From Deltaproteobacteria bacterium (GTDB lineage Bacteria; Myxococcota; JADLHZ01), in the NCBI GenBank assembly GCA_020848545.1, contig JADLHZ010000147.1:1-64000 (forward strand): a DNA stretch of 64,000 nucleotides, written 5' to 3'. The notes under the pieces were generated by a model that was not told where the DNA came from, did not search any database, and saw only the letters and a program-made list of their open reading frames with translations. This document shows positions 1-55,978 of the stretch, one piece after another (position 1 is the stretch's first letter; the number at the start of each line of letters is the position of its first letter). The position numbers and the translations under genes were made by a program.

Positions 1-3000
1 CGGACGATGACGTTGTAGACGTTGTTCGCGCCCGCATCGGCAGGCGCCTCGAAGTCGCGCGCGCTCTGGAAGGTCAGCACGCCGCCGCTCGTGATCGAGA
101 AGAAGCTCGCATCGGCGCCGCCGTTCAGCGTGAACGTGCGCGCGTCGTTCTCCGGATCGCTCGCGGTCGCGGTCGTCACCGCCGTCTGGTTCTCCGCCAC
201 ATTGACCGTGGCGCTGCTCGTAAACACCGGCGGCTCGTTGACGTTCGTCACCGTCACGGCCATCGGCAGATCGGTCGAGAGGCCGTTCGAGGTGGCGCGC
301 ACGATCACGTCGTAGACGTTGTCCGCGCCCGAGTCGGTCGGGTTCTCGAAGTCCTTCGCCGTCAGGAACGTGAGCACGCCACCGCTCGTGATCGAGAACA
401 ACGCCGCATCGGCGCCGCCGTTCAAGCTGAAGGTGATCGCGTTGCCTTCGGCGTCGGTGGCCGTCGCGGTGGTCACCGCCGTCTGGTTCTCGGGCACGCT
501 CACCGCGTTGCTGCTCGTGAACAGCGGCGGATCGTCGACCGCGTTGACCGTGATGTTGACGGTGTCGTTGTCGGACGCGGCGCCGCCCGTGCCGGTGTTG
601 CCTTGGTCGTTGACGTTGAGGGTGAGCACCGCGTTTGGCGGCGACGCGAGGTTCAGCGTCGGGATGAACGTGATCGTCGCGATCGCGTTGTTCACGTTCG
701 CCACGGTGCCGGTGAAGGTCATGGTCGTGTCGGTGGTGCCGTCGCCGACGCTGAAGGTGAGCCCGGTGATGGCGCCGAGGGTCAAGGTGCCGCGCGTGAC
801 GCTCAGGGTGACGAGCAGCGGGTTCGGCCCCGAGTCAGGGTCGCTCGTTTGGATGCGGTTCACGTTCGCGCTCGAGAACACGAGCGGAACGTCTTCGTTG
901 GTGGTCTGTAGGCCCGGCACGGTGTTCGTGGGGCCGTTGTTGGCGACGGTGCAGACGATCGTCAGCGCCGGCGACGTCTGCCGCTCCGGGGACTGCGTGC
1001 TGACCACGGTGCCGACCATCGAGTAGAGGGAGTTGTCCGGCGCCGTGTTCGCCATCAGCATCTTGAACTCGATGCAGATCGGAATGTTGGCGCCGACGCT
1101 CGCGAACGCTTGCGTCGCCGGCGTCGCCGGATTGCCGAAGCCGGTGAAGACGCCGTTCGTGCTCGAGCGGAAGCTGTTGTTGACGTAGCTCAGGCCCGGC
1201 ACCGTCGTCGGAATCGGCGCCGAGAGGATCACGTTCGTCGTCGCCACCGTCGTCTGCGCGCACGCGGTGAACGTGATCTGCGTGTTCTGGTTCATCGTCG
1301 CCGACAACGCCGGCGTCGTCGTCACGGTCCACACTGGCGCCGTGATCGTCGTCGTCGCTTCGTTCGACCACGCGAGGTTCGCGTTCGAGCCGCTCTCGAC
1401 CCGCGCGCGATTGGTGATGACCGCGCCGCCCGGCAACGCGCCGGCGATGACGTCGAAGGTCACGTTGCGCACTTGCCCCGCGGTCACCGTCGCCGGCGCC
1501 AAGGTGCAATCGACTTCGCCAGGGCCTGCGTTCAGCGTGCACGCCGCGCCGGTGCCGCTGCCGGCGACGAAGGTCAGCCCTTCTGGCAGCACGTCGTGCA
1601 GCACGACGTTGTTGATGTCACTGCCGCCGGTGTTCGTGACTTGGAAGACGTAGGTGAATTGCTGCCCGGTGATCACGCTCGCGGGCGCCGTCTTCGTCAC
1701 GGTGAACGGGCTACGCAGGAGCGTCGTCTGCGCCGTCGGCGAGAGCGGTTGGCCGCCGAAGATCGCGTCGACGTCGATGCTGATGGTCTCGCTGTCGTCG
1801 ATCGTCGGCGCCGCCGCCGGCGTCAGCGTCAGCGCGACGTTCACAGTTTGAAAGGGCTGCAGCTGCGTCGCGTTCGGGCCGGTCGTATCCAAGGTCACGC
1901 GGAAGCGGCGCATGCCTGCAGGGGGCACCGGTCCGCTCGTCTCTTCGACGGCGTTGACGACGTAGGTGCCGCCGCCGGGCTTGGTCACGGTCGCCGGCCA
2001 CGGTCCGCCGACTGACAAAAAGTCCGCGTCGAGCGTGGCACGAAAGACGAGCGCGCTCACCGGGCCTTCGCTGCCGGAAGCCGCGCTCATGTTCAGCGTG
2101 ATGTTCGGCGTCGCCCCGAGCGGCAAAGTCGCCGGCGTCGCCGCCACCGACGCGTCGAGCAAGGACTCGAGGAGCAGCGGGCTCGGCGGGATGATCGAAA
2201 AACCCATGTCGAAGGTGGTGCCGGTGCCGCCGGGGACGTCGGCGTCTTGTTGATAGGTGACGACGATCGGCGCCGACGCGACGATGCGCGTGCCGGCCAA
2301 GTTCGCGAAAGTGCCGCCGCCGAAGAACTTCAGTGCCGAGTTGCGCTGCGTGTCGAGATATGGATCGTTACCGCCGGAGCGTGTGCGCAGCGTGTAGCTC
2401 GGCGCCAGCGAATTGCACGCGTACGAAGCCGGACAATCGCTCGCGGCGACGATGGTGCCGCTGCCGTCGATGTCGACGATGCTCGGCGTCGCGCTGCCGG
2501 GGTAATAGATCTCGACCTTCGTCAGATCCTCCGTCGGCGCGATGAAGATCGCGTTGCCGTTGTTGGCGGCGCCGGCGGCGGTCGGCGTGTACGGGATGAC
2601 GTATTCGTTCGTCAGGATGCGCGTCGGGACGAGCGCGTAGCTATAGTCCGAGTTGAAGCTGAGATCGTGAATGCCGATGCCCCAGATCGGCACGTCCGAG
2701 CGCAGGCGCGTGGCGATCGGATAGTTCGGCGCCGACACCGCCCAGTTTTGCGCCAGGAGATCGTGCGTGCCTTGGCTGTTCGCCGGGATGTTGATCGTCG
2801 TCGGCACGGCGTTTCTGTTGAACACCGTCACCGTCGCCGCGGTCTCGTTCGGGTTGAACAGGTACAAGCGATGCGTCATGCCGGCGAGCGGTGCGCCGTG
2901 GGGCAGCACGAAATCGCGACCGTAGGCGCGCACCGGCAGCACGGCCTCGAGATCGATCGCGGGGTTGGCCGCCGTCGAAACGTTGGTCATCGCCACAGCG

Positions 3001-3998
3001 ACTTCTTTGTCCGCGTCGAGACGCGTACCGGCGACGAGGAGCAAGCTCTCGGCGAGCGTCAGGTTCGTCTCGTCGCGCGTCCCGACGATCGCGGCGGTGC
3101 CTGCGGTCGAGAACGACTGGCCGCTGTTCAAGGTGACGGTCACGTTCTTCGTGCCGTTGTCCAAGGTGATCGTCGTGTTGTCTTCGAACGCAGTCACGAA
3201 CGCGCGCGCGAAGCGGAACGGGTCGGCGCCCGTCTGGCCGATCGGCAAGCGGAAGCTCAGGAAGCCGCGCAGCGACTCCTTCGAGAAATGCTCGAGCGAC
3301 GTCGCCCAGCGTTCGCTGTTGGCGATCTGCGGATAGACCTCGTGAATCAAGCTGATGCCGCCGCCGATCGTGCTGATGCGATCGCCGCCGTCGAAGCGGA
3401 CGGCGACGCCGCGCGGCGAGGTGAGGATATTCGAGCACGCGTAGCTACAGGCCTGCGTCGTCGCGACGAGCGGCACCGTTTGCGCGTCGGTGCCCGTGTG
3501 CAGCGGATCGTCGGTGAAGTTGCAGCTCGCAGCGGCGCCGACCGGCACCGCTGTCTGCGTCATGCCGCCGGCGGGCGTGCACGGCACCACCTGATTGTTG
3601 GTGGTGCTGGTCAGGGAGATCGTCTGACCCTTGAACAAGCGAAAGCGCAGAGTCGTCGCCTTCAACAGAGGCGGCGCCGCGTAAGCATCCGTCTCGAAGC
3701 CATCTTCCCAGTGATCATAGACGACGATCTGATCGTCGGCGCTCGCGGTGAACGAGACGACCGAGTTCATCGTCAACACGCCCGCACCGGCCGCGCCGAA
3801 GGTGCCCGGGGCCTGCTGCTTCAAGATCGACAGCACCTGCGATTCGCGCGCGGTGACCATGTAGGTCTGCTTACCGACCGTCGTGTCGGCGAGGGCGGGA
3901 GCGGCGATCAACAGCGCGAGGATAACCGTGAAAGACTTCACCTTCGTTCTATCGATGCCCGCGGGAAACCATTGAGAAAGTCGCAGAGCGTCCCACAT
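1..3998 (-). CDS. Giant secreted adhesin-like protein, C-terminus beyond the left edge
   Basis: One reading frame stays open from about 3998 to base 1, giving at least 1,330 residues. A signal peptide (VKSFTVILALLIAAPALA) precedes a cleavage-like ALA-DTT site. Roughly residues 300-450 resemble the IgGFc-binding N-terminal type. A DUF11 repeat lies near 770-830 (GQQFTYVFQVTNTGG). A cadherin-like segment follows near 1030-1130 (NEDVPLVFSS), then tandem cadherin-type repeats from about 1156 with the motif VPENQTAVTTATATDAEG. ATG 3998 has an AGGAG 8 nt upstream and lies 4 nt after the OmpA gene stop. GTG 3941 would give a more usual signal peptide length. The protein is probably cell-surface or secreted and acts in adhesion; the ligand is unknown. 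Confidence 0.85.
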   Translation of the reverse strand, partial: MWDALRLSQWFPAGIDRTKVKSFTVILALLIAAPALADTTVGKQTYMVTARESQVLSILKQQAPGTFGAAGAGVLTMNSVVSFTASADDQIVVYDHWEDGFETDAYAAPPLLKATTLRFRLFKGQTISLTSTTNNQVVPCTPAGGMTQTAVPVGAAASCNFTDDPLHTGTDAQTVPLVATTQACSYACSNILTSPRGVAVRFDGGDRISTIGGGISLIHEVYPQIANSERWATSLEHFSKESLRGFLSFRLPIGQTGADPFRFARAFVTAFEDNTTITLDNGTKNVTVTLNSGQSFSTAGTAAIVGTRDETNLTLAESLLLVAGTRLDADKEVAVAMTNVSTAANPAIDLEAVLPVRAYGRDFVLPHGAPLAGMTHRLYLFNPNETAATVTVFNRNAVPTTINIPANSQGTHDLLAQNWAVSAPNYPIATRLRSDVPIWGIGIHDLSFNSDYSYALVPTRILTNEYVIPYTPTAAGAANNGNAIFIAPTEDLTKVEIYYPGSATPSIVDIDGSGTIVAASDCPASYACNSLAPSYTLRTRSGGNDPYLDTQRNSALKFFGGGTFANLAGTRIVASAPIVVTYQQDADVPGGTGTTFDMGFSIIPPSPLLLESLLDASVAATPATLPLGATPNITLNMSAASGSEGPVSALVFRATLDADFLSVGGPWPATVTKPGGGTYVVNAVEETSGPVPPAGMRRFRVTLDTTGPNATQLQPFQTVNVALTLTPAAAPTIDDSETISIDVDAIFGGQPLSPTAQTTLLRSPFTVTKTAPASVITGQQFTYVFQVTNTGGSDINNVVLHDVLPEGLTFVAGSGTGAACTLNAGPGEVDCTLAPATVTAGQVRNVTFDVIAGALPGGAVITNRARVESGSNANLAWSNEATTTITAPVWTVTTTPALSATMNQNTQITFTACAQTTVATTNVILSAPIPTTVPGLSYVNNSFRSSTNGVFTGFGNPATPATQAFASVGANIPICIEFKMLMANTAPDNSLYSMVGTVVSTQSPERQTSPALTIVCTVANNGPTNTVPGLQTTNEDVPLVFSSANVNRIQTSDPDSGPNPLLVTLSVTRGTLTLGAITGLTFSVGDGTTDTTMTFTGTVANVNNAIATITFIPTLNLASPPNAVLTLNVNDQGNTGTGGAASDNDTVNITVNAVDDPPLFTSSNAVSVPENQTAVTTATATDAEGNAITFSLNGGADAALFSITSGGVLTFLTAKDFENPTDSGADNVYDVIVRATSNGLSTDLPMAVTVTNVNEPPVFTSSATVNVAENQTAVTTATASDPENDARTFTLNGGADASFFSITSGGVLTFQSARDFEAPADAGANNVYNVIV

Positions 3999-4002
3999 CG
4001 CC

Positions 4003-5685
4003 TCACTCCTGCCCTGCTTGCACGATCAGGAATTCGACGCGCCGATTCTTCGCGCGGCCGCGGTCGGTGTTGTTCGGCGCGATCGGCTTGTCTTGCCCGT
4101 ACCCCTTGGCTTCCAGCCGTGCCGCGTCAACGCCCTTCTCGATGAGGTAGCGCACGACGGACTGTGCGCGGCGCTGCGAGAGGTCCAGGTTCTTCTCAGG
4201 CTTGCCGACGTCGTCCGTGTGCCCTTCGACGCGCACGACCGCGACCTCCGGGTGGACCAAGATCACCTCCGCCACGTTGTTGAGCAGCGGGAATGACACG
4301 GGCTTGATCGTGTCCTTGCCGGTATCGAAATAGACGGCGTCCAGGATCTCGAGCTTATCGGCCTTGATGACGACGAGCTGCTTGACCGCGCAGCCTTGGT
4401 TGGCCACCGGTCCCGGCTCGTTCGGGCAATTGTCCAAGCGATCGACGACGGTATCGCCGTCACCGTCTCGGTCTGGGCAACCACGATTGGGCAGCGGTCC
4501 CGGCTCGTTCGGGCAGCCGTCTTTCTGGTCAACCGTCCCGTCCTTGTCGTTGTCAATCTCGGGGCAACCGTCCTCGTCTTCGAACGCGTCGCGATCTTCG
4601 GGATCGTTCACGCAACGATCGACGTCGTCCTTCAAGCCATCGCCGTCGGTGTCGGGGATCTCCACGACGATCACCTTCGGTGGCGGCGGTGTCTCCACAG
4701 GCTTCGACGCCGGCGCAGAAGCTGGTGCGCTCGCGGGCGCCGGCGCCGGCGGATCCGCGATCCAGCCGACGCGCACCCCGGCGAACACACGAAAGTCCGG
4801 CGTGCCCCACCCTTGCGTGAGCCCCACCCCGGCGCCGGCGAACGCTTGCACGAGCTTGATGAATTCGTAGCTGAGCATGCCGCGTAGCTCGAGCGCCGTC
4901 TGGTTCGGGCGCTGAAACGGCCGCAGCAAGGACGTGGCGCCGCTGAAGCTGAGGTCGACCTCGAAGGGCGGCATGCCGCGATCCTTGAAGCGAAAGCCTG
5001 CTCCGAGCCGCCACGTGAGCTCGCTCTCCACGTCTTGCAGCACGCTCGAGGTTCGCGCGCGCGCGTCGAAGCCGATGTTCAGCGCGAGGCGAGGCCCCTT
5101 GAACGCGCGCGAGATCAAGATCTCCGGCTTGAACGTGACGCTCGGCTCGCCGAGGTATTGGCGCTGCATGCCGGTCGGGAAGGTGACAGCGAGCAGCACG
5201 CCGAGATCGATCACGTGTTGATCCGATCGGAGAATCCGCACCTTCGGGCTCACCCGCAGATCGCCGACGCCGATGACCGAGAGCGAGCTGAGGTCGGTGG
5301 AGAACGCCTGCGGCTGCGCCGACGGCCGCCCTTGGTAGAGCGCGAGCGGCAGCTCGAGGCCGATCTCGATCCACTCGTAGAAGCCGACGGTGCCGATGAG
5401 CGAGGCGCCGAGACGATCTTGGATCAGCGACGCGACTTGCTGGCGCGTCGTGACGTCGGAGACGACGAGCGGGTTCCTCGCGTAGCCGAACCACAAACCA
5501 GCGTCCCACGAGAGGTGCGGGATGACGCGCGCCCATTCGACGTCGATGATGCCCTCACGGTTGAGCGAGAGGCGCAGGCGCTCGCCCGGGAAGTTCGTCG
5601 TTTCTTGGACGATCGTTTGCGCCGCCGCTGGCGCGACGAGCAACGAGAGCATAAAGACCACGGCAAATATGCGGCGATGCAGCAC
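4003..5685 (-). CDS. OmpA-family outer membrane protein with TSP3 calcium repeats
   Basis: 560 residues from a GTG start. A signal peptide ends at APAAA-QT. Residues about 25-300 look like an outer-membrane beta-barrel. A Pro/Ala-rich linker (PAPAPASAPASAP) leads to thrombospondin type-3-like Asp-rich repeats at about 335-430 (DTDGDGLKDD, DNDKDGTVDQKDGCP). The C-terminal OmpA domain at about 440-555 carries VRVEGHTDDVG and LSQRRAQSVVRYL, the peptidoglycan-binding signature. The gene sits 4 nt upstream of the giant adhesin and is probably co-transcribed with it. The likely role is to anchor the outer membrane to peptidoglycan, possibly supporting surface display of the adhesin; that link is inference. 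Confidence 0.93.
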   Translation of the reverse strand: MLHRRIFAVVFMLSLLVAPAAAQTIVQETTNFPGERLRLSLNREGIIDVEWARVIPHLSWDAGLWFGYARNPLVVSDVTTRQQVASLIQDRLGASLIGTVGFYEWIEIGLELPLALYQGRPSAQPQAFSTDLSSLSVIGVGDLRVSPKVRILRSDQHVIDLGVLLAVTFPTGMQRQYLGEPSVTFKPEILISRAFKGPRLALNIGFDARARTSSVLQDVESELTWRLGAGFRFKDRGMPPFEVDLSFSGATSLLRPFQRPNQTALELRGMLSYEFIKLVQAFAGAGVGLTQGWGTPDFRVFAGVRVGWIADPPAPAPASAPASAPASKPVETPPPPKVIVVEIPDTDGDGLKDDVDRCVNDPEDRDAFEDEDGCPEIDNDKDGTVDQKDGCPNEPGPLPNRGCPDRDGDGDTVVDRLDNCPNEPGPVANQGCAVKQLVVIKADKLEILDAVYFDTGKDTIKPVSFPLLNNVAEVILVHPEVAVVRVEGHTDDVGKPEKNLDLSQRRAQSVVRYLIEKGVDAARLEAKGYGQDKPIAPNNTDRGRAKNRRVEFLIVQAGQE

Positions 5686-5695
5686 GGAACTGCTA

Positions 5696-5724
5696 TGTTA
5701 AGCGGCTCGCGCGCCCAGTACCAA
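5696..5724 (-). promoter_or_regulatory. Possible promoter of the OmpA-adhesin operon
   Basis: On the minus strand TTGGTA (5724-5719) is followed 17 nt later by TTAACA (5701-5696), resembling -35 and -10 boxes. It lies only about 10 nt before the GTG start, so the transcript would have almost no leader. This is weak evidence in a GC-rich genome. Confidence 0.3.
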
Positions 5725-5831
5725 ATATTCACACACCCACAACGTCATACCGAACCGTGACGAAGTGCGCGGGTGCGGACCGCGGCGCCGCACCTACTAC
5801 TGAGCCGAGCACACGTGCTATGCGGCCGCGC

Positions 5832-6329
5832 ATGGAACTGCTCGTCCTCGTCTTCCTCCACGTCGTCGCCGGCGCGCTCTGGGCTTCTGCCGCCGTGGTC
5901 CAAGGCTTCTTCCTCGTCCCCGCGATCTTCGACGCCGGCCCGGGTGGCGGCGCCGTGATGGCCGGCATCACCAAGCGCAAGTTCGTGCCCTTCATGTTGA
6001 TCGTCAGCTGGACCGCGCTGCTCACCGGCCTTCGCCTCTATTCGATCCGCTTCAGCAGCGCGTGGGTGACGACGCCCGAGGGCATCGTGCTCTCGCTCGG
6101 CACGCTGCTCGCGATCAGCGCCGCTGTCATCGGCATGGCGCGGCAGAAGCCGACGGCGGAGAAGTTGGCGGCGCTCGCTTCGGAGATCAAAGGCGCACCG
6201 ACACCCGCGCAGGCGCAAGAAATGGCCGCGCTTGGCCAGCGGCTCGTCAAGATCGCACGAGTGACCGCGTACCACTTGCTCGCCGCGCTCGTGCTGATGG
6301 CGTCGCATCGGCTCGCGGCGGTGCTCTGA
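5832..6329 (+). CDS. Small integral membrane protein, four predicted TM segments
   Basis: 165 residues beginning MELLVLVFLHVVAGALWASA. Four hydrophobic helices are visible: about 3-25, 50-70, 78-100 and a C-terminal one. The first helix has a His and a Trp (LHVVAGALW), a pattern seen in DUF2269/CopD-type membrane proteins, but I cannot assign the family firmly. An upstream ATG at 5820 would add four residues. The stop overlaps the next start (TGATG), so this protein and the MAPEG protein are probably made together. Confidence 0.7.
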   Translation: MELLVLVFLHVVAGALWASAAVVQGFFLVPAIFDAGPGGGAVMAGITKRKFVPFMLIVSWTALLTGLRLYSIRFSSAWVTTPEGIVLSLGTLLAISAAVIGMARQKPTAEKLAALASEIKGAPTPAQAQEMAALGQRLVKIARVTAYHLLAALVLMASHRLAAVL

Positions 6330-6760
6330 TGCAGGGGCCGATCTTCGTCACGATCGCCTACATCTTGGTCTACTACGCGCTGCAGTCGCGCGGGCTTCGG
6401 GTGAAGAGCCGACTCAAGCGCGAGTACAAAGCACGCGGCGAGAAGTTCGATCGCTACTTTCATCAGGATCGCCAGCTGCTCGCCGCGGATCGCAAGGTGC
6501 TGAACATGGCCGAGCACATGCCGCCCTTTCTCGCGCTGCTCTGGTTGAACGCGAGCTTCGTCGGGCCGCTGAGCGCGACGATCGCCGGCAGCGTGTACGT
6601 CGCCGCGCGCATCCTCTATCCGTTCATGATGGGTGATACGCTCGGGACGTACGTGCCGCGCCGGATCTTGCTCGCGACGGTGCCTGGCTACGTCGTGCTC
6701 GGCTACTTGGCGATCTCGCTCTTCGTCGTCACTCTTCGGAAGACGTTGGCGGGTACGTGA
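6329..6760 (+). CDS. MAPEG-family membrane protein
   Basis: 143 residues with four hydrophobic segments. The central part, FLALLWLNASFVGPLSAT followed by GSVYVAARILYP, matches the MAPEG fold (membrane-associated proteins in eicosanoid and glutathione metabolism). The length is normal for bacterial members. ATG 6329 overlaps the preceding TGA by one base. The 3' end overlaps the convergent TPR-like gene by 32 bp. Glutathione-dependent detoxification is the family's usual role; the substrate here is unknown. Confidence 0.8.
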   Translation: MQGPIFVTIAYILVYYALQSRGLRVKSRLKREYKARGEKFDRYFHQDRQLLAADRKVLNMAEHMPPFLALLWLNASFVGPLSATIAGSVYVAARILYPFMMGDTLGTYVPRRILLATVPGYVVLGYLAISLFVVTLRKTLAGT

Positions 6761-7241
6761 TCGCCGCGAAGAACGAGCACGCGCTGCTGACGGCCACATC
6801 GCGCTCGACGTAGATCTTGCAAAACGCGTCCTCGTCGATGAGCTCGATGCATTCTTCGATCTCGAGATCGGCGTAGGGATCGACCTCGATCTCGACCATC
6901 GGCTCGCCGACGTAAGGAATGAGCTCGACGCTGCGCGGCTTTGGCGCGCTCAACGCGTCGACGGCGTCGATCGCATGGCCGAGCTGCTTCTCGGCGGCGG
7001 CGATGACGGCGCGGGCATGGCGCAGCTGGCCACGGGCGACGAAGGCCTTGGCGGTCTGGATGAACCAGTTCTTCGCCTCGTCGAATTCGCCAGCCTTCAC
7101 ATGTGCTTCGGCGCAGCGCAGGCGCAGCCACGGATCGGCCTGATCGAAGGCGACGAGCTGCTTTCTGACCTCGGCGCATTCCTTGAAGCGGCCGCGTTCG
7201 AAGAGCCGGGCGGCACGGTTTTTCAGGTTACGAACGACCAC
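6729..7241 (-). CDS. Hypothetical protein with N-terminal TPR-like helices
   Basis: 170 residues from GTG 7241. The first about 90 residues are helical and TPR-like (AARLFERGRFKECAEVRKQL, LRCAEAHVKAGEFDEAKNWF). The rest is acidic (EIEVDPYADLEIEECIELID) and has no known motif. No signal peptide or TM segment is seen, so it is probably cytoplasmic. The 3' end overlaps that of the MAPEG gene. The N-terminal half resembles the helical part of the cNMP-binding protein at 9689-10939 in style only. Confidence 0.6.
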   Translation of the reverse strand: MVVRNLKNRAARLFERGRFKECAEVRKQLVAFDQADPWLRLRCAEAHVKAGEFDEAKNWFIQTAKAFVARGQLRHARAVIAAAEKQLGHAIDAVDALSAPKPRSVELIPYVGEPMVEIEVDPYADLEIEECIELIDEDAFCKIYVERDVAVSSACSFFAAITYPPTSSEE

Positions 7242-47083: not shown

Positions 47084-48289
47084 CTAGGTCGGCGTCGCGA
47101 ACAAGGGCGCGCCGGCGGCGTGCGCAGCTTCGGCGAACGCCGCCGCGGTGTTCTCGAGCATGACGTCGGTGTGGCCGATCGTCACCTGCGCGCGGATCCG
47201 TGCCGAGCCCTCGGGAACCACCGGATGACAGAAGCCGAGCGCGTAGGCACCCTTTTGGTACAAGAGGTCGGTCATCTTCTGCGCGACCGTCGCGTGGCCC
47301 ACGTGGATCGCGATCGCCGGGTGCTTGCCTGGCAAGAGATGAAAGCCGTGGCGCTCGAGCGCGAGGCGGAACGCACGCACCTTCTCCATGAGCGCCTCGC
47401 GCGACTTGTCGGCTTGCTTCGCGAGCTCGATCGCCTTCAACGCCGCCGCGGCCGACGCCGGAGGCAGCGCGGTCGACGTGAGGTATGGCCGCGAGCGCTG
47501 CCGCAACCACGTCGCCATCACCGACGGACACGCGATGAAGCCGCCGCTGCCACCGCCGAGGGCGTGCCCGAAGGTGCCAGTGATCACGTGCGGCTTGGCC
47601 GTCACCGAGAGCTCGACGTGCGTGCCGCGTCCACTCGCGCCCCACACACCGATGCCATGACTGTCATCGACGGCGACGAGCGCGTCGTACTGTTCGGCCA
47701 GGCGATAGATCTCCTCGAGCGGCGCCGGCCCGCCGTCGAGCGGAAACACGCCGTCCGTCGCGATGATGCGAAAGCGCGCCGTCCGCGAGCGGCGCAAGCG
47801 GTCCTGTAAGTGCGCAAGATCGCGGTTGCGATAGGTGTAGACGCGCGCCCGGCTCAGCCGGATGCCGTCGGCCAGGCTCGGACGGATGAGCTCGTCGCAA
47901 AAGATGAAATCGCGCTCGCCGAGCAGCGCCTCGAAGAGGCCGGTGTTCGCCTGGTAGCCGGACGCGAAGACGACGGCGTCGTCGGTGCCGAGCCACTGCG
48001 CGATCGTCTTCTCCAACGCGAGGTGAATCGGCAGCGTGCCGGTGATCAAGCGCGTAGACGCGAGGCCCACGCCGTACTTCTGCAACGCCGCCGCCGCCGC
48101 GTCCTTCACTACCGGGTGGTTCGCCAAGCCGAGATAATCCGACGAGGCCAGGTTCACGAGCAGCCTGCCGCCGAGCGTCATCCCCGCGCCGGCGGGTGAA
48201 TCCAAGGTCTGCTCGCGCTTCAAGGCCGCGTCGAGGTCGAGGCGCCGGTTCTGGTTGTGCAAAAACTCCATGAACAGGTCCGAGCTCAT
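47084..48289 (-). CDS. Alpha-oxoamine synthase homologue lacking the PLP lysine
   Basis: 401 residues in the fold of 2-amino-3-ketobutyrate CoA ligase (Kbl) and BioF: LASSDYLGLANHPVVKDAA, FASGYQANTGLFEALLG, VAVDDSHGIGVWGASGRG and TGTFGHALGGGSGGF. In active family members the last motif is TGTLGKALGG, with Lys forming the Schiff base. Here it is His242 (codon at 47564-47566). The ring-stacking His of the NHAS motif is Arg136. Asp208 and His211 remain. It is the last gene of the MotA/MotB-like operon, overlapping the preceding gene by 4 nt. Confidence 0.88.
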   Translation of the reverse strand: MSSDLFMEFLHNQNRRLDLDAALKREQTLDSPAGAGMTLGGRLLVNLASSDYLGLANHPVVKDAAAAALQKYGVGLASTRLITGTLPIHLALEKTIAQWLGTDDAVVFASGYQANTGLFEALLGERDFIFCDELIRPSLADGIRLSRARVYTYRNRDLAHLQDRLRRSRTARFRIIATDGVFPLDGGPAPLEEIYRLAEQYDALVAVDDSHGIGVWGASGRGTHVELSVTAKPHVITGTFGHALGGGSGGFIACPSVMATWLRQRSRPYLTSTALPPASAAAALKAIELAKQADKSREALMEKVRAFRLALERHGFHLLPGKHPAIAIHVGHATVAQKMTDLLYQKGAYALGFCHPVVPEGSARIRAQVTIGHTDVMLENTAAAFAEAAHAAGAPLFATPT

Positions 48290-48837
48290 TTCGCCTCCGC
48301 CTTTGCGCCCGCGATGAACCACACGAGCGATGACGCGCAGATCTGCCACGACAACCCGGTCTCGAACGCGCTCCCCGCGCAGTAGGCATCGATCGCTCTG
48401 GCCAGCACCGGCGTGCCTTCGAGCGAGCCCTCGGTTCTCAGGCGTAGATCCGCCGCGAGGGCCGCCTGCATCCGGCGGATTTCGCGCGCCACCTCGCGAC
48501 GCCAATCTTTTGTCTGCTGCATGATCTCGTAACGCCGCGCCGCCGGCACCCACTGCTGCTCGGCGAGCACGTTGCTCACGATGACGTCTTCGTAGGCCAG
48601 GCAATCGGCCGTGTTCGGCTGCGCTTCACAGTGCCTCTTCGCCGCGGCGATCATGCAGTCGACGCGAATACGCCTGCTGCCCGCTGCACAGGCGCCGCGC
48701 TCCGACAAAGACGCTTGCTCGTACGCGCGCGCCAAGACGTCGCTCGGTGTGCGCTGCGCCGCCTCGATCAACACCTGCAAGCGCGCCACGCGTTCATCGC
48801 CGCTGTACACCGCCAGCAGCAGGAAGAGCACGCTCAC
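48286..48837 (-). CDS. Small exported Cys-containing protein of the Mot/Tol-like operon
   Basis: 183 residues from GTG 48837, which overlaps the upstream stop (GTGA). N-terminal MSVLFLLLAVYSGDERVARL is a short signal-peptide-like stretch. The mature part is helical (LQVLIEAAQRTPSDVLARAY, AARRYEIMQQTKDWRREVA) with Cys in GACAAG, DCMIAAAKRHCEA and DCLAYED that could form disulphides. Probably periplasmic. It overlaps the PLP-fold gene by 4 nt. No family recognised. Confidence 0.7.
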   Translation of the reverse strand: MSVLFLLLAVYSGDERVARLQVLIEAAQRTPSDVLARAYEQASLSERGACAAGSRRIRVDCMIAAAKRHCEAQPNTADCLAYEDVIVSNVLAEQQWVPAARRYEIMQQTKDWRREVAREIRRMQAALAADLRLRTEGSLEGTPVLARAIDAYCAGSAFETGLSWQICASSLVWFIAGAKAEAK

Positions 48838-50372
48838 AGGCGCCCTCTCTGGCGCTGATACTGCCGGCGGAAGACGCGCACGAAGTTCTTCAGGTGCATT
48901 TGATACGGATACACTTCGAGCACGTCGTGCTGCGTGCTCAGCCACGCCGGATCCAAGAAGATGTCCAAGCTCTCGAGGCCGTAGAGCCGGCTCAGCGAAA
49001 AGTCCTCGCCTGAGAGCGTGGCCTTCAACGCCGAGACGTCGTCGCGATCGACGCCCTCCTCGCTGAGCAGCTTGCCGTAGTGAAAGCCGCGCGCGAGCAC
49101 CTGCGCGACGGCGTCGTAGCGATCGGTGCGCAGCGCGTCTGGTGCGGGCGCGACGCGAACATCCTGCGCCGAGAACGGGTGCTCGCCGATGAAGAACTCG
49201 CGAGACGCGCGGGCGTCACCGCCGGGCCGCTCCATGTAGCACTGAAAGCTCAAGAAGTGTTGCGGCGGCAGCGCGCGCTGCGCCTTCCCCGTCTTTGAGC
49301 GCTCGAGCACCGCCAACACTGATCCGAGCGCACCTTGCGCATGCAGAAAACCAAAGGTGTCTGCGGTGAGCTGCTCACAGGCGTCCTCGAGCGCGCCCCA
49401 ATGCACCATGTACTCGCGGCAGGTTCCGGAGGGCGCTTGATAGCGGCTCTCGAACAAGAGCTGCGCGAGCAAATGCTCGAACACTTGCGAGCGGCTCGCG
49501 TCGGCGGGTGGGCGATGCGGCAGCAGGCGGTAGCGATCCTCGCACGTGCGCTCAGAGAACGCGCCGGTCTTCGGATCGGGCAGGTTGGTCCACACATGGT
49601 GCGCGGCGTGCGGCGCCGACGCGAGCACTTGCCGCTGCGCGCCGCGGATGTTGCCGAGCTGGGCGAAGCGCGCGGTGAGGTCGTGCCACGATCGCGCGAA
49701 GCGCTCCGGCTGAAAGACGCCGCTGACGTTGTCCCAAAAGCCACCGAGCAAGCGCCACGCGTAGTGCAGCAGCGGCTCGTCCCACTGGCGCAGCGTACAA
49801 ACGGCACGGTTGATCGCGCGGGAATGCGCAACGGCGCACTCGCCGAGATCCTTCGCGTAGCCGAGCTCGTAGGCCCGCCGCACGAGCGCGCAGCCCGGCG
49901 CGTTGGGATCGATCTCCGCTGGGCGATTCGAGAGATCCGGGCAGTATGAGCCGACGCTGACGCCACCTGCGACGCGCGCGAGCTGCGAGAACGCGCGCGA
50001 GTCGATCGCGCCGAGCGCCGCGATCAAGACGACGCTCACACAGATCACGAGCTGCGCGGCGCCCGGCAGATCGAACGCCTCGCCGTGGTTCTGCCCGAGC
50101 GTCACCCGCCGCTTCTTGCCGCCGACGAAGTGCGCCTCGTCCTCCCAGATGAAGCTGTCGGACGACCAGCCGAAGAACTGCTGGCTGCGCTCGCTCAGGC
50201 GGAAGAAGCGATACGCGAGCGTGCCCGTCACCACCGCGAAGACGCCCGCGAGCAGCAGGGCGCCATTGTCGCGCGCCGCGAGCCGCTCCGGCGACAAGAC
50301 GCCGAGCGCGCCGCCGGCGATGAGCGCCAGCGCAGCGAGCAGCAGCGTCGCCAAGGTCTTCGCGCCGATCAC
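48834..50372 (-). CDS. Membrane protein of the Mot/Tol-like operon, 512 residues
   Basis: Starts at GTG 50372, overlapping the MotB-like stop by 4 nt. Three hydrophobic segments at about 5-25, 35-55 and 110-130 (TLATLLLAALALIAGGALGV, LVICVSVVLIAALGA) are followed by a large domain with paired Cys (GSYCPDLSN, GCALVRRAYELGY, GECAVAHSRAINRAVCTL). The C-terminal half resembles nothing I know and contains FLSFQCYMERPGG and YPYQMHLKNFVRVFRRQY. Cys placement suggests a periplasmic domain. Confidence 0.8.
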   Translation of the reverse strand: MIGAKTLATLLLAALALIAGGALGVLSPERLAARDNGALLLAGVFAVVTGTLAYRFFRLSERSQQFFGWSSDSFIWEDEAHFVGGKKRRVTLGQNHGEAFDLPGAAQLVICVSVVLIAALGAIDSRAFSQLARVAGGVSVGSYCPDLSNRPAEIDPNAPGCALVRRAYELGYAKDLGECAVAHSRAINRAVCTLRQWDEPLLHYAWRLLGGFWDNVSGVFQPERFARSWHDLTARFAQLGNIRGAQRQVLASAPHAAHHVWTNLPDPKTGAFSERTCEDRYRLLPHRPPADASRSQVFEHLLAQLLFESRYQAPSGTCREYMVHWGALEDACEQLTADTFGFLHAQGALGSVLAVLERSKTGKAQRALPPQHFLSFQCYMERPGGDARASREFFIGEHPFSAQDVRVAPAPDALRTDRYDAVAQVLARGFHYGKLLSEEGVDRDDVSALKATLSGEDFSLSRLYGLESLDIFLDPAWLSTQHDVLEVYPYQMHLKNFVRVFRRQYQRQRGRL

Positions 50373-50962
50373 GGTTTTGCGGCCACCTTGTCTTCGATGC
50401 TGATGCGGCGATTCTTCGCCTTCGCCTCGCGCATCGCGTCTCGTTCGGCCGGCGTGAGCGTGCCGGTGAAGGTCGGCACGACCTCGGCCGGAGCGTTGTC
50501 CGCGTGCGTGCACAAGGCGACGTGATCAGGCAGCGCTGGGCCGTACTTCTTGATCTCGTGATACGCCGTCAGCGCGCGCTGATAGCCGAGCTCGAGGTTC
50601 TTCTCCTTGTCGCCGTCGCCGTCGGTGTGACCGTGGATGATCAGCTCGCGCTGCGTGAGCGGGCCCGAGTCGAAGCTGAGCACGGTGCCGCTGTCGTCGG
50701 CGAAGAGATCGGACATCACCTTTTGCCCATCGCGGGAGAGCGCGCTTTTTCCTGGCTGGAACAAGACGTCGCCCGGCAAGTTCACCATCTTCACCGTCTG
50801 CGTGCCGACCGAGTCGCTGACGCCGGACTTGCCGCTGCGATTCTGGATCGCCCACAGGATCACGAAGAAGATCATCACGTTCGTCATCAGATCGATGTAG
50901 ATAATCTGCCAAGTGTCGAACGCGCGCCGCCCGCGTGATGCGCGCTTCGTCTTTCGGATCAT
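50369..50962 (-). CDS. MotB/OmpA-like proton-channel and peptidoglycan-binding protein
   Basis: 197 residues. A single N-terminal TM, DTWQIIYIDLMTNVMIFFVILWAI, has the Asp24 position that binds protons in MotB/ExbD-type stators. The OmpA-like domain at about 80-190 carries LIIHGHTDGDGDKEKNLELGY and the tail AKNRRISIEDKVAAKP. The layout matches MotB: cytosolic tip, one TM, periplasmic peptidoglycan-binding part. It overlaps the MotA-like gene (ATGA), so a stator-like pair is probable. Confidence 0.88.
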   Translation of the reverse strand: MIRKTKRASRGRRAFDTWQIIYIDLMTNVMIFFVILWAIQNRSGKSGVSDSVGTQTVKMVNLPGDVLFQPGKSALSRDGQKVMSDLFADDSGTVLSFDSGPLTQRELIIHGHTDGDGDKEKNLELGYQRALTAYHEIKKYGPALPDHVALCTHADNAPAEVVPTFTGTLTPAERDAMREAKAKNRRISIEDKVAAKP

Positions 50963-51765
50963 TGCTTCACCTCGATCGCCGCCTTGTTGTCGAAGATCAC
51001 CTTCAAGGCGCGGCAGACGGTGTCGAAGTCGTAGTCGAGGCTCTTCAGACGCTGCTCGAAGCGCGTGGCGCTGATCTTGTAGAGCGACGAGTACAGCGCG
51101 CCGTAGAGCGTGCACTTCAACGCCAGCGCGAGCTGCGGCGACAGCTGCTCCACGGTGACGACGCTGCCGAGGCTATCGAACATGCTGATGAGGCCGAGCA
51201 CCGTGCCCATCAGGCCGAGCAGCGGCATCGTGCCGGCGACGAAGTCCAGGTGCGCGGCCGAGTGATCGTAGAGCTCTTGGCACTCGACGTAGTACGAATA
51301 CGCCACGTACTCGGCGTACTCGTAGTCCTTCTGCTTCTCTTGCACGGCAACGAGATCGCGCACGAGCGCGTTGTCCGGCAGCTCGATGCGCATGCCCTTC
51401 TCCATCGGCCCGGTCTTCAGCTCGCCCGCGCGATCGCGGCGCAGCGCCAAGCCGTCCTCGAGCGCGACCAAGGTCTCTTGCAGCATCGTCGCTTTGGCCG
51501 TGATGTGCTTCGACGAGAAGAACACCGTCACCGCCGACAAGAGCAGCTTTCCAATCTCGGCGCCCGTCGCGTAGACGAGCAAGCCGAGCGACACGCCGAG
51601 GAGCGCGATGAAGAAGTTCTCGGTGACGAAGAAGACACCCGACACGACGAGCAACCCGGCGAAGCCGAGTAGGCCGACGACGCCAGCGCCAGCCGCCTTC
51701 TCGTTGATCGCAAGCGCGCTCTTGGTCGTCGCGTCGAGCGCAGCGTTACCTCTCTCTTCTGACAT
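50959..51765 (-). CDS. MotA/TolQ/ExbB-like proton channel protein
   Basis: 268 residues from ATG 51765. TM segments at about 28-48, 52-72, 170-190 and 205-225. The channel signature is FVAGTMPLLGLMGTVLGLISMFD, then VTVEQLSPQLALALKCTLYG, as in the MotA_ExbB domain. The cytoplasmic loop is long (ALEDGLALRRDRAGELKTGP). Coupled to the MotB-like gene by a 4-nt overlap and to the upstream multi-TM gene by 20 nt. Confidence 0.9.
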   Translation of the reverse strand: MSEERGNAALDATTKSALAINEKAAGAGVVGLLGFAGLLVVSGVFFVTENFFIALLGVSLGLLVYATGAEIGKLLLSAVTVFFSSKHITAKATMLQETLVALEDGLALRRDRAGELKTGPMEKGMRIELPDNALVRDLVAVQEKQKDYEYAEYVAYSYYVECQELYDHSAAHLDFVAGTMPLLGLMGTVLGLISMFDSLGSVVTVEQLSPQLALALKCTLYGALYSSLYKISATRFEQRLKSLDYDFDTVCRALKVIFDNKAAIEVKQ

Positions 51766-53830
51766 CGGTGTCTCCGTTCGCTTGGGCGCGCAGCTCGGCC
51801 ATGCGCGCGGTGTAGGTGTGGTGGTAGGCGATCGCCTCTTTGGCCAAGGCGAAGAAGACGCCAAAGAACACGAGCGCAAGTGAGCCTATGACGACGGCGC
51901 GCGTCCGCCGCGTCGCCACGCTCGCGCCGCGGAAGAAATGAGCGAGCCAGCGCACGCGCGGGTCTTTGCTCGCGTCGACGATGCGCTCCGAGGTCGCGAG
52001 CAGGGCCGGACCGCTGGCGCGCGCTGTGAGCCAGGCTTTGTCGCCACCGCCGAGCTGATGCAGATACTGCAGCAACGGGTGCAGCGTATGGTTGAGCGCG
52101 ACATAGGTGTCTGACACCCGGGTCGCCGGCGAAGCGAAGAGGCTCGGGAGCCACGGCATGCACAAGCGCAGCGTGCTCAGCGGCGCGTTGCCGCGCGAGA
52201 TGTCGCCCACGGCGCCGACGAGCGCGCCGAAGAGGAAGTCCTTGTGCGAAGGATCGATGTCGTCGAGGGCGCCGTGCGTCAGGAACTTCTCGAACGCGCC
52301 GGTGTGCTCGCCGCCGGCCTTTTGCGCTAGCGGCGGCGGCGCGTTGTCGTGGCGGGGCGTCAACCATCCGACGACCGTCGTGTTTTCGCCCATCGCGCGC
52401 GGCATCGATGCTTCGGGCAGCGCCATCGCCTTGCCGAGCTGCTTGCGCACGACTTCGAGCGCGTCATCGAAGTGCTTGTCGTGCGGCGTCGCGCTCGGCG
52501 ACGGCGACAAGAGCCCCCACGCCATCTCTTCGGGGTTCACGGTTCGCTCCGGCGCGACGAGCTCGTCCGGTAGCTCACCGAGCGCGAGCTCACGGCTCTG
52601 CTCGCCGACGACGATGCGCGGGCGCGCGAAGCCGCCGCCGTAGATGTGCACGCCGGGCTTCGTCCCTGGGAGAAACAGCGCGCGGCGCAGCACCGCAGGG
52701 TCGAGCGAGACGCCACTCCTGCGCGCGGCGGCGAGGAAGTAGCGGCGCATGTGTGCGTGCCAAGCGTTCTTCGTGCTCGGCGGACCGACGACGAGGCGGA
52801 GATCCAAGAAGGTCGTGAGGTTGTCCGCCAGCGCCATCAGCCAAAACCACGCGAGGAGGCCCGCGCCCGGCACGAGCAAGATCCAGGTGATGCGATGCTC
52901 GATGAGCGAGATCGCCCACAGCAAGAGCACGAACGGCGTCAGCATCAACGCGCGAAACACCGCCAGCGAGAACCACGCTGCGAGCACCGGCCACAGCGCA
53001 CCTTGACGCACGTTCGACAAGCCAGCGATCGGCGAGAACACGAAGCGAAGCACGATCAACGCGAGCGTGCCCCAGAGAACGCCGCCGACGAGCGGAAGGA
53101 TGAGGGTCGGCACGGCGCTCAGCCCGCGCAGCTGCATCTGGATCTCGAGCGGACGCCAATCGAGGCGGCTCACCGCCACGACAAGGAGCAGCAGCGCGAC
53201 CAGGATCCCCGACCACAGCCACGAGCTCGGCCGCTCCTGGCGCAAGAGATCACTCGTGCGGACGAGCACCCATAGCAACACGACGGGCAGGCACAAGAGC
53301 GCCGCCAAGATCGCGATGAAGCCGAAGACGAGCCCCGCCGGCAGACCGACCGGTTGAATCACGATCGCGAGGCCGGCGTCGGTTGGCCGCGTGTCGAGCA
53401 GGCCGCCGCTCGCGGTGATCGGCCGCACGAGGTCGCCGACGCGCTGCTCGAGACGGGCCGAGGTCGTTCCTTCAATCGCGACGCTGCCCCTGGCCGCACG
53501 CGCCGGGCTCCAAGTTTCGTGCACTTCGTAGTCGAGGGTGCCGCCGCGGAGCGCGCCGAGCACGACGATGTCGACCCCGCGCATACCGTAGAGGTTCACG
53601 ACGCACCGAGGCGTCCGCTTCGGGCACTGCGCGGTGGACGACGTTTTGTCGACGAGCCGCACCCGCGAAAAACGCGCGAGCTCCTTGGCGATGACGCCGG
53701 CGATGGCTTCGGCAAACCACGCGTCGCCCTCGCCCGGTGCCACGTCGATGACGACGGCAGCCCGCTCTTGCGGCTGCGCAAGGTCCGCGAAAAGCAGGCT
53801 CACGAGAGCGATGGAGGTCGCCGCAAGCAT
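51746..53830 (-). CDS. Multi-TM envelope protein with an N-terminal TolB-N-like domain
   Basis: 694 residues from ATG 53830. A signal peptide (LAATSIALVSLLFADLAQ) precedes a periplasmic domain (about 25-150) of TolB-N/FlgO-like appearance (AVVIDVAPGEGDAWFAEAIA, ELARFSRVRLVDKTSS). Six or so TM helices at 170-380 (GLVFGFIAILAALLCLPVVL, LWSGILVALLLLVVAV) lead to a large soluble part and a final TM (AVVIGSLALVFFGVFFALA). The stretch VHIYGGGFARPRIVVGEQS recalls M48 peptidases, but no HEXXH is present. It is the first large gene of the Mot/Tol-like operon. Confidence 0.82.
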   Translation of the reverse strand: MLAATSIALVSLLFADLAQPQERAAVVIDVAPGEGDAWFAEAIAGVIAKELARFSRVRLVDKTSSTAQCPKRTPRCVVNLYGMRGVDIVVLGALRGGTLDYEVHETWSPARAARGSVAIEGTTSARLEQRVGDLVRPITASGGLLDTRPTDAGLAIVIQPVGLPAGLVFGFIAILAALLCLPVVLLWVLVRTSDLLRQERPSSWLWSGILVALLLLVVAVSRLDWRPLEIQMQLRGLSAVPTLILPLVGGVLWGTLALIVLRFVFSPIAGLSNVRQGALWPVLAAWFSLAVFRALMLTPFVLLLWAISLIEHRITWILLVPGAGLLAWFWLMALADNLTTFLDLRLVVGPPSTKNAWHAHMRRYFLAAARRSGVSLDPAVLRRALFLPGTKPGVHIYGGGFARPRIVVGEQSRELALGELPDELVAPERTVNPEEMAWGLLSPSPSATPHDKHFDDALEVVRKQLGKAMALPEASMPRAMGENTTVVGWLTPRHDNAPPPLAQKAGGEHTGAFEKFLTHGALDDIDPSHKDFLFGALVGAVGDISRGNAPLSTLRLCMPWLPSLFASPATRVSDTYVALNHTLHPLLQYLHQLGGGDKAWLTARASGPALLATSERIVDASKDPRVRWLAHFFRGASVATRRTRAVVIGSLALVFFGVFFALAKEAIAYHHTYTARMAELRAQANGDTDVRRER

Positions 53831-53900
53831 GGGACGTGCATCTTGCCCCGGCGTGGGCGTGGCGGCACATATAATAGACGGCGGCAACCGGCGCGCGGCG

Positions 53901-54095
53901 TCACTCTTTCGAAGGAATCAGTCGCCCCGTCCGCGGCTCGGACTCTTCGCCGTACGCCGCGATGAGCGGGTTCTTGACGTTGCGCACCTCTGCCCACGTC
54001 AGCGGCGGCGTCGGAATCGCGTTCAAGCAAAGGGGAAAAGCGACGGCGACGAAGAGCAAGATCGCAACGAAGCGGAGGTCGATCGCGAGTCTCAT
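53901..54095 (-). CDS. Small protein with a signal peptide or TM anchor
   Basis: 64 residues. N-terminal hydrophobic stretch LRFVAILLFVAVAFPLCLNA, then polar (AEVRNVKNPLIAAYGEESE) with a C-terminal RLIPSKE. It lies 70 nt upstream of the Mot/Tol-like operon on the same strand and may be its first gene. No family recognised; coding status moderate. Confidence 0.5.
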   Translation of the reverse strand: MRLAIDLRFVAILLFVAVAFPLCLNAIPTPPLTWAEVRNVKNPLIAAYGEESEPRTGRLIPSKE

Positions 54096-54160: not shown

Positions 54161-55024
54161 ATGCCAGCCGTCGCCCTCATCACCTCCGCGGCGTTCCCCA
54201 AGCTCTACGAAGACGACCTCTTGCTCGTCCCCGCGCTCGCGGAGCTCGGCATCACTGCCGTCCCCGCCGTGTGGAGCGATGCAACGATCGACTGGAGCTC
54301 GTTCCGCGCGCTGGTGATTCGCTCACCGTGGGACTACTTCGAGCGCAACGCGGAATTCCTCGCGTGGCTCGACGCTCGGATCCAAAGCGGCGTCCTCATG
54401 TGCAACGCGGCCGACATCCTCAGGTGGAACTACGACAAGCGCTACCTCGTCGATCTCGCAAAGGCAGGCGTGCCACTGGTGCCCACGATCTGCGTCGCGC
54501 GCGGAGAGAAGGCCGACGTCGCGGCGCTGGCGCGAGCGCGCGGCTGGAACGAAGTCGTCATCAAGCCAACGATCTCCGGCGGCGCCTATCGCACGCATCG
54601 CTTCTTGGTCGACGACGCGATGGCGTACGGCAAAGAGATCGACGAGATCCTCTCGGACCGCGGCCTGCTCGTGCAGCCTTTTCTCCCCGAGATCATGAGC
54701 GGCGGCGAGCTCTCGCTGCTCTTCTTCGATGGCGTCTTCAGCCACGCCGTCCGCAAGCGCGCGAAGCCCGGCGAGTACCGCGTGCAGTTTCAATACGGCG
54801 GCAGCAACGAGAACGCAGACGTCTCTGCCGAGCTCATCGCGCAAGCACGTGCGTGCGCGCTCGCCGCGCCGTCGCTGCCCGTCTACGCGCGCGTCGACGG
54901 AGTGATACGCGACGGACAGTTTCTGCTGATGGAGCTCGAGGTGTTCGAGCCGCTGATGTTCCTCGCGCGTCACCCGGAGGCGCCGTCCCGCTTCGCGCGC
55001 GCGATTCGCGGCCGGCTGCGCTAA
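54161..55024 (+). CDS. ATP-grasp protein
   Basis: 287 residues. The ATP-grasp fold can be traced by RALVIRSPWDYFERNAEFLA, RWNYDKRYLVDLAKAGVPLV, VVIKPTISGGAYRTHRF, LVQPFLPEIMSGGELSLLFF and YARVDGVIRDGQFLLMELEV. The order matches the RimK/DcsG-like group, which joins an amine to a carboxylate using ATP. No peptide or antibiotic cluster is nearby, so the substrate is unknown. Preceded by GAGGTAGG, a fair Shine-Dalgarno. Confidence 0.88.
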   Translation: MPAVALITSAAFPKLYEDDLLLVPALAELGITAVPAVWSDATIDWSSFRALVIRSPWDYFERNAEFLAWLDARIQSGVLMCNAADILRWNYDKRYLVDLAKAGVPLVPTICVARGEKADVAALARARGWNEVVIKPTISGGAYRTHRFLVDDAMAYGKEIDEILSDRGLLVQPFLPEIMSGGELSLLFFDGVFSHAVRKRAKPGEYRVQFQYGGSNENADVSAELIAQARACALAAPSLPVYARVDGVIRDGQFLLMELEVFEPLMFLARHPEAPSRFARAIRGRLR

Positions 55025-55192
55025 GGGCCCGCTCGGCCGGAACACGGTGCCGTAGCACTCGATGATCGACGGATTCAGGTGCACCACGCAATCCGTCTCC
55101 CTGCAGCGAACCCACAGCGGGTTATCGCTTCGGATCGTGGGTCGTCGCAACTGTTTGACTGTGGGCGGCAGGTTCGAGCTAAAGCCGCCTCA

Positions 55193-55978
55193 ATGCCCTC
55201 TCTCGAACCGTTTTATCTGCGCGACCGCGAGCGCTACACGGCGACCGCGTCGACTGAAGGTCCCTGGGATCCGGCGCTGCAACACGGCGGTCCCGTGGCG
55301 GCGCTCCTCGCGAGCCGCATCGAAGCGGCGGCGGTGAGCGCTGAGACCAGAGTCGCGCACTTCGCGCTCGAGTTCTTCGCTCCGGCGCCGCGCGCGCCGC
55401 TCGACGTCGAGACGAGCGTGGTGCGGCCCGGCAAGAAGATCGCCCTCCTGCGCGCCACGGGCTTGCATGCGGGCCGCGCCGTCGTGTCGGCGAGCGCGTG
55501 GGTGCTCGCCACGCGCGAAGGCCGAAGCCCGCTGATCCATTTACTAGACGCGGCGCCGCCGCCGATGCCGCAGAAAGCGATCGAGACCTACTTCGAGTCG
55601 GTGCCGCACTTTGGCTACGGCGACGCGCTCGAATGGCGCTTCACCGAGGGCGGCTTCAACAGGCTCGGCCCTGCGGCGGTGTGGGCGCGGCTGCGCGTGC
55701 CGATCGTCGAGGGCGAGGCGATCTCGCCGCTCGCGCGCGTCTTGGCGATGGTCGACTCGGCGAACGGCATCAGCGCAGAGCTCGATCCGACGGAATACCT
55801 CTTCGTGCCCGTGAACCTCACGGTGGCGCTCGCGCGGCCGCCGGCGACCGAGTGGACCGGCATGCGCGCGCTCACCGCGATGGCGAGCGACGGCGTCGGT
55901 GTGACGCGCGCGCATCTCTACGACGAGCGCGGCGCCATCGGCGAAGCGCTGCAGACGCTCTACGTCGAGAAGCGCTGA
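55193..55978 (+). CDS. Acyl-CoA thioesterase-like (double hot-dog) protein
   Basis: 261 residues from ATG 55193. Two hot-dog halves, with GPWDPALQHGGPVAALLASR and VAHFALEFFAPAPRAPLDVE in the first and PLARVLAMVDSANGISAEL with NLTVALARPPATEWTG in the second. This is the TesB-like or 4HBT_3 type. It hydrolyses acyl-CoA thioesters. A GC-rich stem (GGCGGC...GCCGCC) lies just before the start. The 168-bp gap before it has no gene I can support. Confidence 0.87.
   Translation: MPSLEPFYLRDRERYTATASTEGPWDPALQHGGPVAALLASRIEAAAVSAETRVAHFALEFFAPAPRAPLDVETSVVRPGKKIALLRATGLHAGRAVVSASAWVLATREGRSPLIHLLDAAPPPMPQKAIETYFESVPHFGYGDALEWRFTEGGFNRLGPAAVWARLRVPIVEGEAISPLARVLAMVDSANGISAELDPTEYLFVPVNLTVALARPPATEWTGMRALTAMASDGVGVTRAHLYDERGAIGEALQTLYVEKR

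Follow-up and report, generated by a model that had tools for sequence, protein, structure and literature searches.

To our knowledge, only a few ion-driven 5:2 motor systems have been described, namely Mot/Pom, Exb, Tol, Agl, Gld and Zor, and it is the partner proteins that define what each motor is used for. Within this group, the B subunits of flagellar stators (the MotB-type component) carry a long linker followed by an OmpA domain, while the generic ones have neither (PMC12505986), and ZorB has a short linker ahead of its OmpA domain (PMC11890865). Here we analyse a stretch of 64,000 nucleotides from a Deltaproteobacteria bacterium of the Myxococcota (assembly GCA_020848545.1, contig JADLHZ010000147.1, positions 1 to 64,000; hereafter the window), whose minus strand carries six linked genes, A to F, that encode a MotA/MotB-type pair and four partners. 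We consider it fairly probable that these genes specify a dedicated envelope motor that is driven by ions, has load proteins of its own and is regulated by F acting as a pseudoenzyme. A further 5:2 system with four undescribed partners would extend the known roles of these motors. We found no paper describing the A-F gene set in the open-access literature, subscription journals lying outside our coverage.

The operon spans 6.7 kb (53830-47084) and consists of the open reading frames A (53830-51746, 694 amino acids), B (51765-50959, 268 amino acids), C (50962-50369, 197 amino acids), D (50372-48834, 512 amino acids), E (48837-48286, 183 amino acids) and F (48289-47084, 401 amino acids). The A/B pair overlaps by 20 nucleotides and the B/C, C/D, D/E and E/F pairs by 4 nucleotides each. 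This bears out the six overlapping same-strand genes of an earlier reading of this DNA (the original prediction), made from its letters alone. That reading had also listed a small anchor-containing gene just upstream as a possible seventh member, and here we depart from it: none of the four loci tested contains a relative of the 64-amino-acid open reading frame in question (53901-54095), which was dropped as a member.

The original prediction had proposed in advance that recurrence of the same genes would speak for a system, and the set does recur. A scan of GTDB genomes for B returned two contigs, both with the six genes in order: a Myxococcales metagenome-assembled genome (locus L015, JANXMC010000844, B 72% identical) and a Bdellovibrionia one (L016, JAUHWN010000011, B 52% identical). 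The full set is also present at L017 and L018, in two genomes from the phylum of the window, and seven further loci (L031-L037) came from 369 genomes of the phylum of L016. Altogether, A-F occur in the same order in eight genomes, Bdellovibrionota included (the window, L015, L016, L017, L018, L031, L032 and L034), and A-E without F at three more loci (L035, L036 and L037), while the L033 locus ends inside C at the end of its contig. Because the operon recurs intact in distantly related genomes, its arrangement is not a product of chance. The original prediction had named homologues of the large genes outside this arrangement as evidence that would count against it, and for D none appeared: D was present in 3/58, 1/379 and 7/369 of the genomes searched, every time inside these operons, and no unlinked homologue was found among them. 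The reading of the gene set as one system is thus supported.

B and C are the putative motor subunits of this set. B belongs to the MotA_ExbB family (E=1.5e-15), in line with the MotA/ExbB-like channel first proposed, and hydropathy and profile alignment give it the plan of MotA, with two N-terminal transmembrane helices, a cytosolic segment and the channel helices. Across members it measures 256-284 amino acids, and the last channel helix lies about 40 residues before the C-terminus. The B proteins form a clade separate from 30 MotA/TolQ/ExbB paralogues that these genomes also encode (support 99/98); against a B profile the paralogues score at most 34 bits, and all B members except that of L037 score at least 378 bits. 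In a search of PDB profiles, B is roughly equidistant from MotA (8gqy), TolQ (45 bits) and PomA. C matches MotB_plug (6e-7), and in the same kind of search lies nearest to MotB and to ZorB (8qyd, labelled 'membrane protein' in the search table, which we take to be ZorAB). The OmpA domain falls below the cut-off in the window copy (2.7e-4), yet is detected in 10/11 members, and the channel Asp24 of the original prediction (codon 50891-50893, minus strand), the predicted ion-carrying residue, is kept in all 11. Asp114 and Arg129 of C are equally invariant (11/11), as are Pro181, Thr188 and Thr219 of B (12/12). From family knowledge and an alignment with TolQ, we take these six to be the known ion-path and peptidoglycan-binding residues. 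As judged from these alignments, B and C are homologous to MotA/MotB-type channels and keep their ion-path and peptidoglycan-binding residues intact.

Around this pair stand three envelope partners, A, D and E, for which no curated family in Pfam, NCBIfam or PADLOC scores above its cut-off. A has a signal peptide, a periplasmic domain, five transmembrane helices, a soluble stretch, a last transmembrane helix and a short periplasmic tail. The TolB-N-like domain that had been suspected in A scores below threshold by sequence (0.15); the predicted fold of residues 23-140 (53411-53764, minus strand; predicted local distance difference test, pLDDT, 57-82 over the block) supports it, with Foldseek matches to PelC (5.6e-4), the TolB of a TolB-Pal complex (1.2e-3), TolB (1.9e-3) and LpoB (2.8e-2), and we describe it as a putative periplasmic domain of the TolB_N/PelC/LpoB type. 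The soluble stretch (residues about 336-640, 51911-52825, minus strand) was delimited from the alignment, the profile domains and the helix count. An odd number of transmembrane helices precedes it, also in L016 and L032, whose A proteins have two helices fewer, and the stretch is therefore predicted to be cytosolic. Since one helix escapes the simple hydropathy scan in a few further members, this topology stands as a prediction.

D was correctly described as a cysteine-rich membrane protein of 512 residues. Most members have three N-terminal transmembrane helices, and 10/11 share eight conserved cysteines, all of which lie in the part predicted to be periplasmic. E, with an N-terminus resembling a signal peptide, agrees with the small exported protein proposed for this position; it is predicted to be periplasmic and has six cysteines invariant in 11/11. 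No known family for D or E emerged above chance level from Pfam, NCBIfam and PADLOC, nor, for D, from PDB profiles. From their cysteine patterns, D and E may be disulfide-stabilised periplasmic proteins.

The sixth gene brings an enzyme relative into the operon. Over its full length F is related to glycine C-acetyltransferase (Kbl), at 413 bits against NF005394, and it falls below the equivalog cut-offs (387 bits against TIGR01822, under the cut-off of 493). Its matches to 1fc4 (E=3.8e-93) and Aminotran_1_2 (2.4e-45) confirm the sequence of a fold type I pyridoxal phosphate (PLP) enzyme, and by hydropathy it is predicted to be cytosolic. The PLP-fold protein of the original prediction therefore stands as regards its family, with two corrections: it lacks the full set of catalytic residues, and it is missing from some loci. 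In the window copy, the alignment places His at residue 242 (47564-47566, minus strand) instead of the PLP-binding lysine, and the eight F copies have at this position His (window), Ala, Lys, Asp, Lys, His, Lys and His, the lysine being absent in the window, L015, L018, L031 and L034. We scored the four catalytic positions that correspond to His133, Asp204, His207 and Lys236 of E. coli BioF. The eight proteins read RDHH, RDQA, HDLK, HHLD, HHSK, SSEH, HHNK and HDHH, so that the full tetrad HDHK occurs in 0/8 F proteins versus 18/18 paralogues in these genomes. All eight F proteins group together (88/95, incompletely supported), and their nearest relatives are true Kbl proteins (100/99). By these comparisons, F descends from Kbl and its active site is incomplete in every copy. 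At the same time the reading frame is intact in 8/8, the other copies being 35-49% identical to that of the window; F is therefore maintained, and it is probably a dead enzyme, a pseudoenzyme by sequence. That an enzyme should consistently lose its active site and remain linked to a motor operon would be a rare and testable case of a transition from enzyme to regulator.

There is a precedent for such a loss in the same family. The serine palmitoyltransferase subunit LCB1 lacks the lysine and has likewise lost catalytic residues (PMC3794620), and F resembles it in this respect, its own ancestry lying in the Kbl branch of alpha-oxoamine synthases. The two differ in their associations: LCB1 has a catalytic homologue as its partner, whereas F is linked to a motor operon. 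A genuine Kbl above the curated cut-off is present in just 4/12 host genomes and absent from that of the window, and a role for F as the LCB1-like partner of such an enzyme was set aside as not general. In the window's own genome, an open frame of 1845 residues, possibly a multidomain biosynthetic enzyme, includes an alpha-oxoamine synthase domain whose catalytic residues are intact (L055, G000:C65:19004-20155).

The presence of F goes along with the form of A. At the eight loci with F (8/8), A is long and has the cytosolic domain; at the three loci without F, A is short (370, 249 and about 200 amino acids) and has no such domain. L035 and L036 are sisters (100/99) in a group that also holds the F-bearing L034, and L037 is an outlier, so that the joint presence or absence of F and the domain reflects about two independent events. 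This pattern points to the cytosolic domain of A as a likely docking site of F.

The distribution of the cassette is that of an accessory element. B was found in 3/195 genomes of the window's phylum, 8/369 of the phylum of L016 and 1/184 of the order of L015, a cassette frequency of about 0.5-2% of genomes. The B proteins of genomes G543 and G395 are 76% identical versus 59% for RpoB of the same pair, and those of G543 and G523 are 26% identical versus 84% for RpoB. Over the lineages as a whole, B shows almost the same degree of conservation as RpoB. Since B identity exceeds RpoB identity in the G543/G395 pair, the cassette has, as far as these identities tell, been transferred horizontally at least once. 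An origin from plasmids or phages was considered and rejected, as the cassette has no match in either collection. The most divergent version is that of L037 (9208-13099), in which B is 26% identical and D has one transmembrane helix and fewer cysteines. Its A, of 200 amino acids with a signal peptide, a periplasmic part and one transmembrane helix, was assigned by position and plan, with no detectable sequence similarity to the other A proteins. Judging by the L037 version, such operons may belong to a wider family.

Taken as a motor, the operon could work as follows. In the inner membrane, B and C would assemble into a 5:2 complex, and ion flow past Asp24 of C would turn B around a C dimer tied to the peptidoglycan, a direction of force that we infer. 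A, with its TolB_N/PelC-like head, and the disulfide-stabilised modules D and E would be the load or the sensor, taking the place of the flagellar rotor or of TolA/TonB, and in this way ion flow might be converted into envelope work. F would dock on the cytosolic domain of A and regulate the machine; it might do so by binding a ligand of its ancestor, either an acyl-CoA or an amino-acid-like molecule. The whole unit would be accessory and move between lineages. We advance only tentatively, and with doubts of our own, the most specific version of this idea, a horizontally mobile, ion-driven 5:2 trans-envelope machine whose TolB_N/PelC-like head and two disulfide-rich proteins act on the periplasm or sense it, and which is gated from the cytoplasmic side by a dead Kbl relative sensing a metabolite or a lipid precursor.

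The closest described systems offer other ways to read the same genes. The likeness to MotAB and PomAB lies in the plan of B and in the combination of an ion-carrying Asp with an OmpA-like peptidoglycan-binding domain in C. The differences are that B stands in a clade of its own, that A, D, E and F stand in for a flagellar rotor as its partners, and that about 18 residues separate the transmembrane helix of C from its OmpA domain, versus a plug and linker of 52 residues in E. coli MotB (PMC12505986). With an OmpA domain and no long linker, C is closer to the description of ZorB (PMC11890865), and among defence models it is nearest to ZorB: it matches the PADLOC ZorB1 models in 11/11 members (E down to 1.2e-15). 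One could then imagine a Zorya-like defence in which B and C sense an invader's envelope damage through the peptidoglycan, ion flow triggers D and E as a membrane or periplasmic effector, and F acts as a cytosolic switch, and the patchy distribution and horizontal transfer of the operon would suit this. B, however, has no long ZorA cytoplasmic tail and barely matches the ZorA models (best 8.8e-5; none for the window copy), and A-F contain no ZorC, ZorD or ZorE, no type III genes and no nuclease, helicase or other effector family, having membrane and periplasmic partners instead. Nor are the flanks consistently made of defence genes: a defence-island context was rejected after the PADLOC matches among 90 flanking proteins proved scattered, each family represented by at most two proteins and none forming a consistent system. 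With the operon also absent from the plasmid and phage collections, we regard defence as unlikely.

Another possibility is a variant of Tol-Pal or Ton, in which B and C supply the energy for A, D and E to exert a pull on the outer membrane, to stabilise it or to take up a substrate. Its appeal is that the channel subunit is of the same superfamily as in Tol-Pal, ExbBD-TonB and AglRQS, that A bears the TolB_N/PelC/LpoB-type domain, and that C joins the TolR/MotB role with a Pal-like OmpA domain. Yet the operon has no TolA or TonB, no TolB propeller, no Pal lipoprotein and no Glt partners, and the OmpA domain of C is itself a departure, as the generic transporters ExbBD, TolQR and AglRQS are reported to have a compact periplasmic domain without OmpA homology (PMC12505986). 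Moreover, the host genomes carry 7-19 MotA/ExbB-family matches each, and the operon is too rare for a housekeeping system, so this variant seems to us just as improbable as defence. Least probable of all, and very much so, is that F is an active enzyme of altered chemistry within a biosynthetic or lipid-modifying unit energised by B and C: although F is homologous to Kbl over its full length and the PLP lysine survives in three copies, no copy has all four catalytic residues together, the lysine is gone in five, A-E persist at loci without F, and no other metabolic gene recurs beside the operon. Judged on sequence features, then, assignment to Zorya, to flagellar stators, to generic transporters or to Tol-Pal fails in each case on at least one tested defining feature, in agreement with the original view that the partners differ from those of known stator systems, gliding systems among them.

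Several points weigh against a dedicated motor system regulated by F, the reading that we prefer. Usable model confidence in A is confined to residues 23-140 (about 120 residues), the remainder being poor, and the structure model of D, built from a three-row alignment, was discarded at a pLDDT of 34. For the 5:2 assembly of B and C the evidence is homology, and the short linker of C makes its reach to the peptidoglycan puzzling. The partnership of A and F draws on no more than the two or so independent events described above, and the three F copies that retain the lysine, and lack the equivalent of BioF His207, could have a changed chemistry.

The surroundings of the operon vary from locus to locus, no gene family lying beside it in more than two loci. 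In the window, the divergent neighbours are a weak ATP-grasp (glutathione synthetase-like) protein (54161-55021) and an acyl-CoA thioesterase of the 4HBT_3 family (55079-55975), neither conserved at other loci. Two distant loci (L031:5711-6928 and L037:6742-7932) share an AAA_14/DUF4143 ATPase gene on the upstream side of the operon, a recurrence that may be due to chance, the family being common. At L033, a separate cluster of ExbB, ExbD and ExbD-like genes with a large exported protein (1257-5510) lies a few kb from the operon. At L018, F is followed, with an overlap of 1 nucleotide, by a gene (5592-7157) for an ABC1/UbiB-like atypical kinase fused to the C-terminal domain of ribosomal protein L7/L12, a fusion seen at this locus and at no other.

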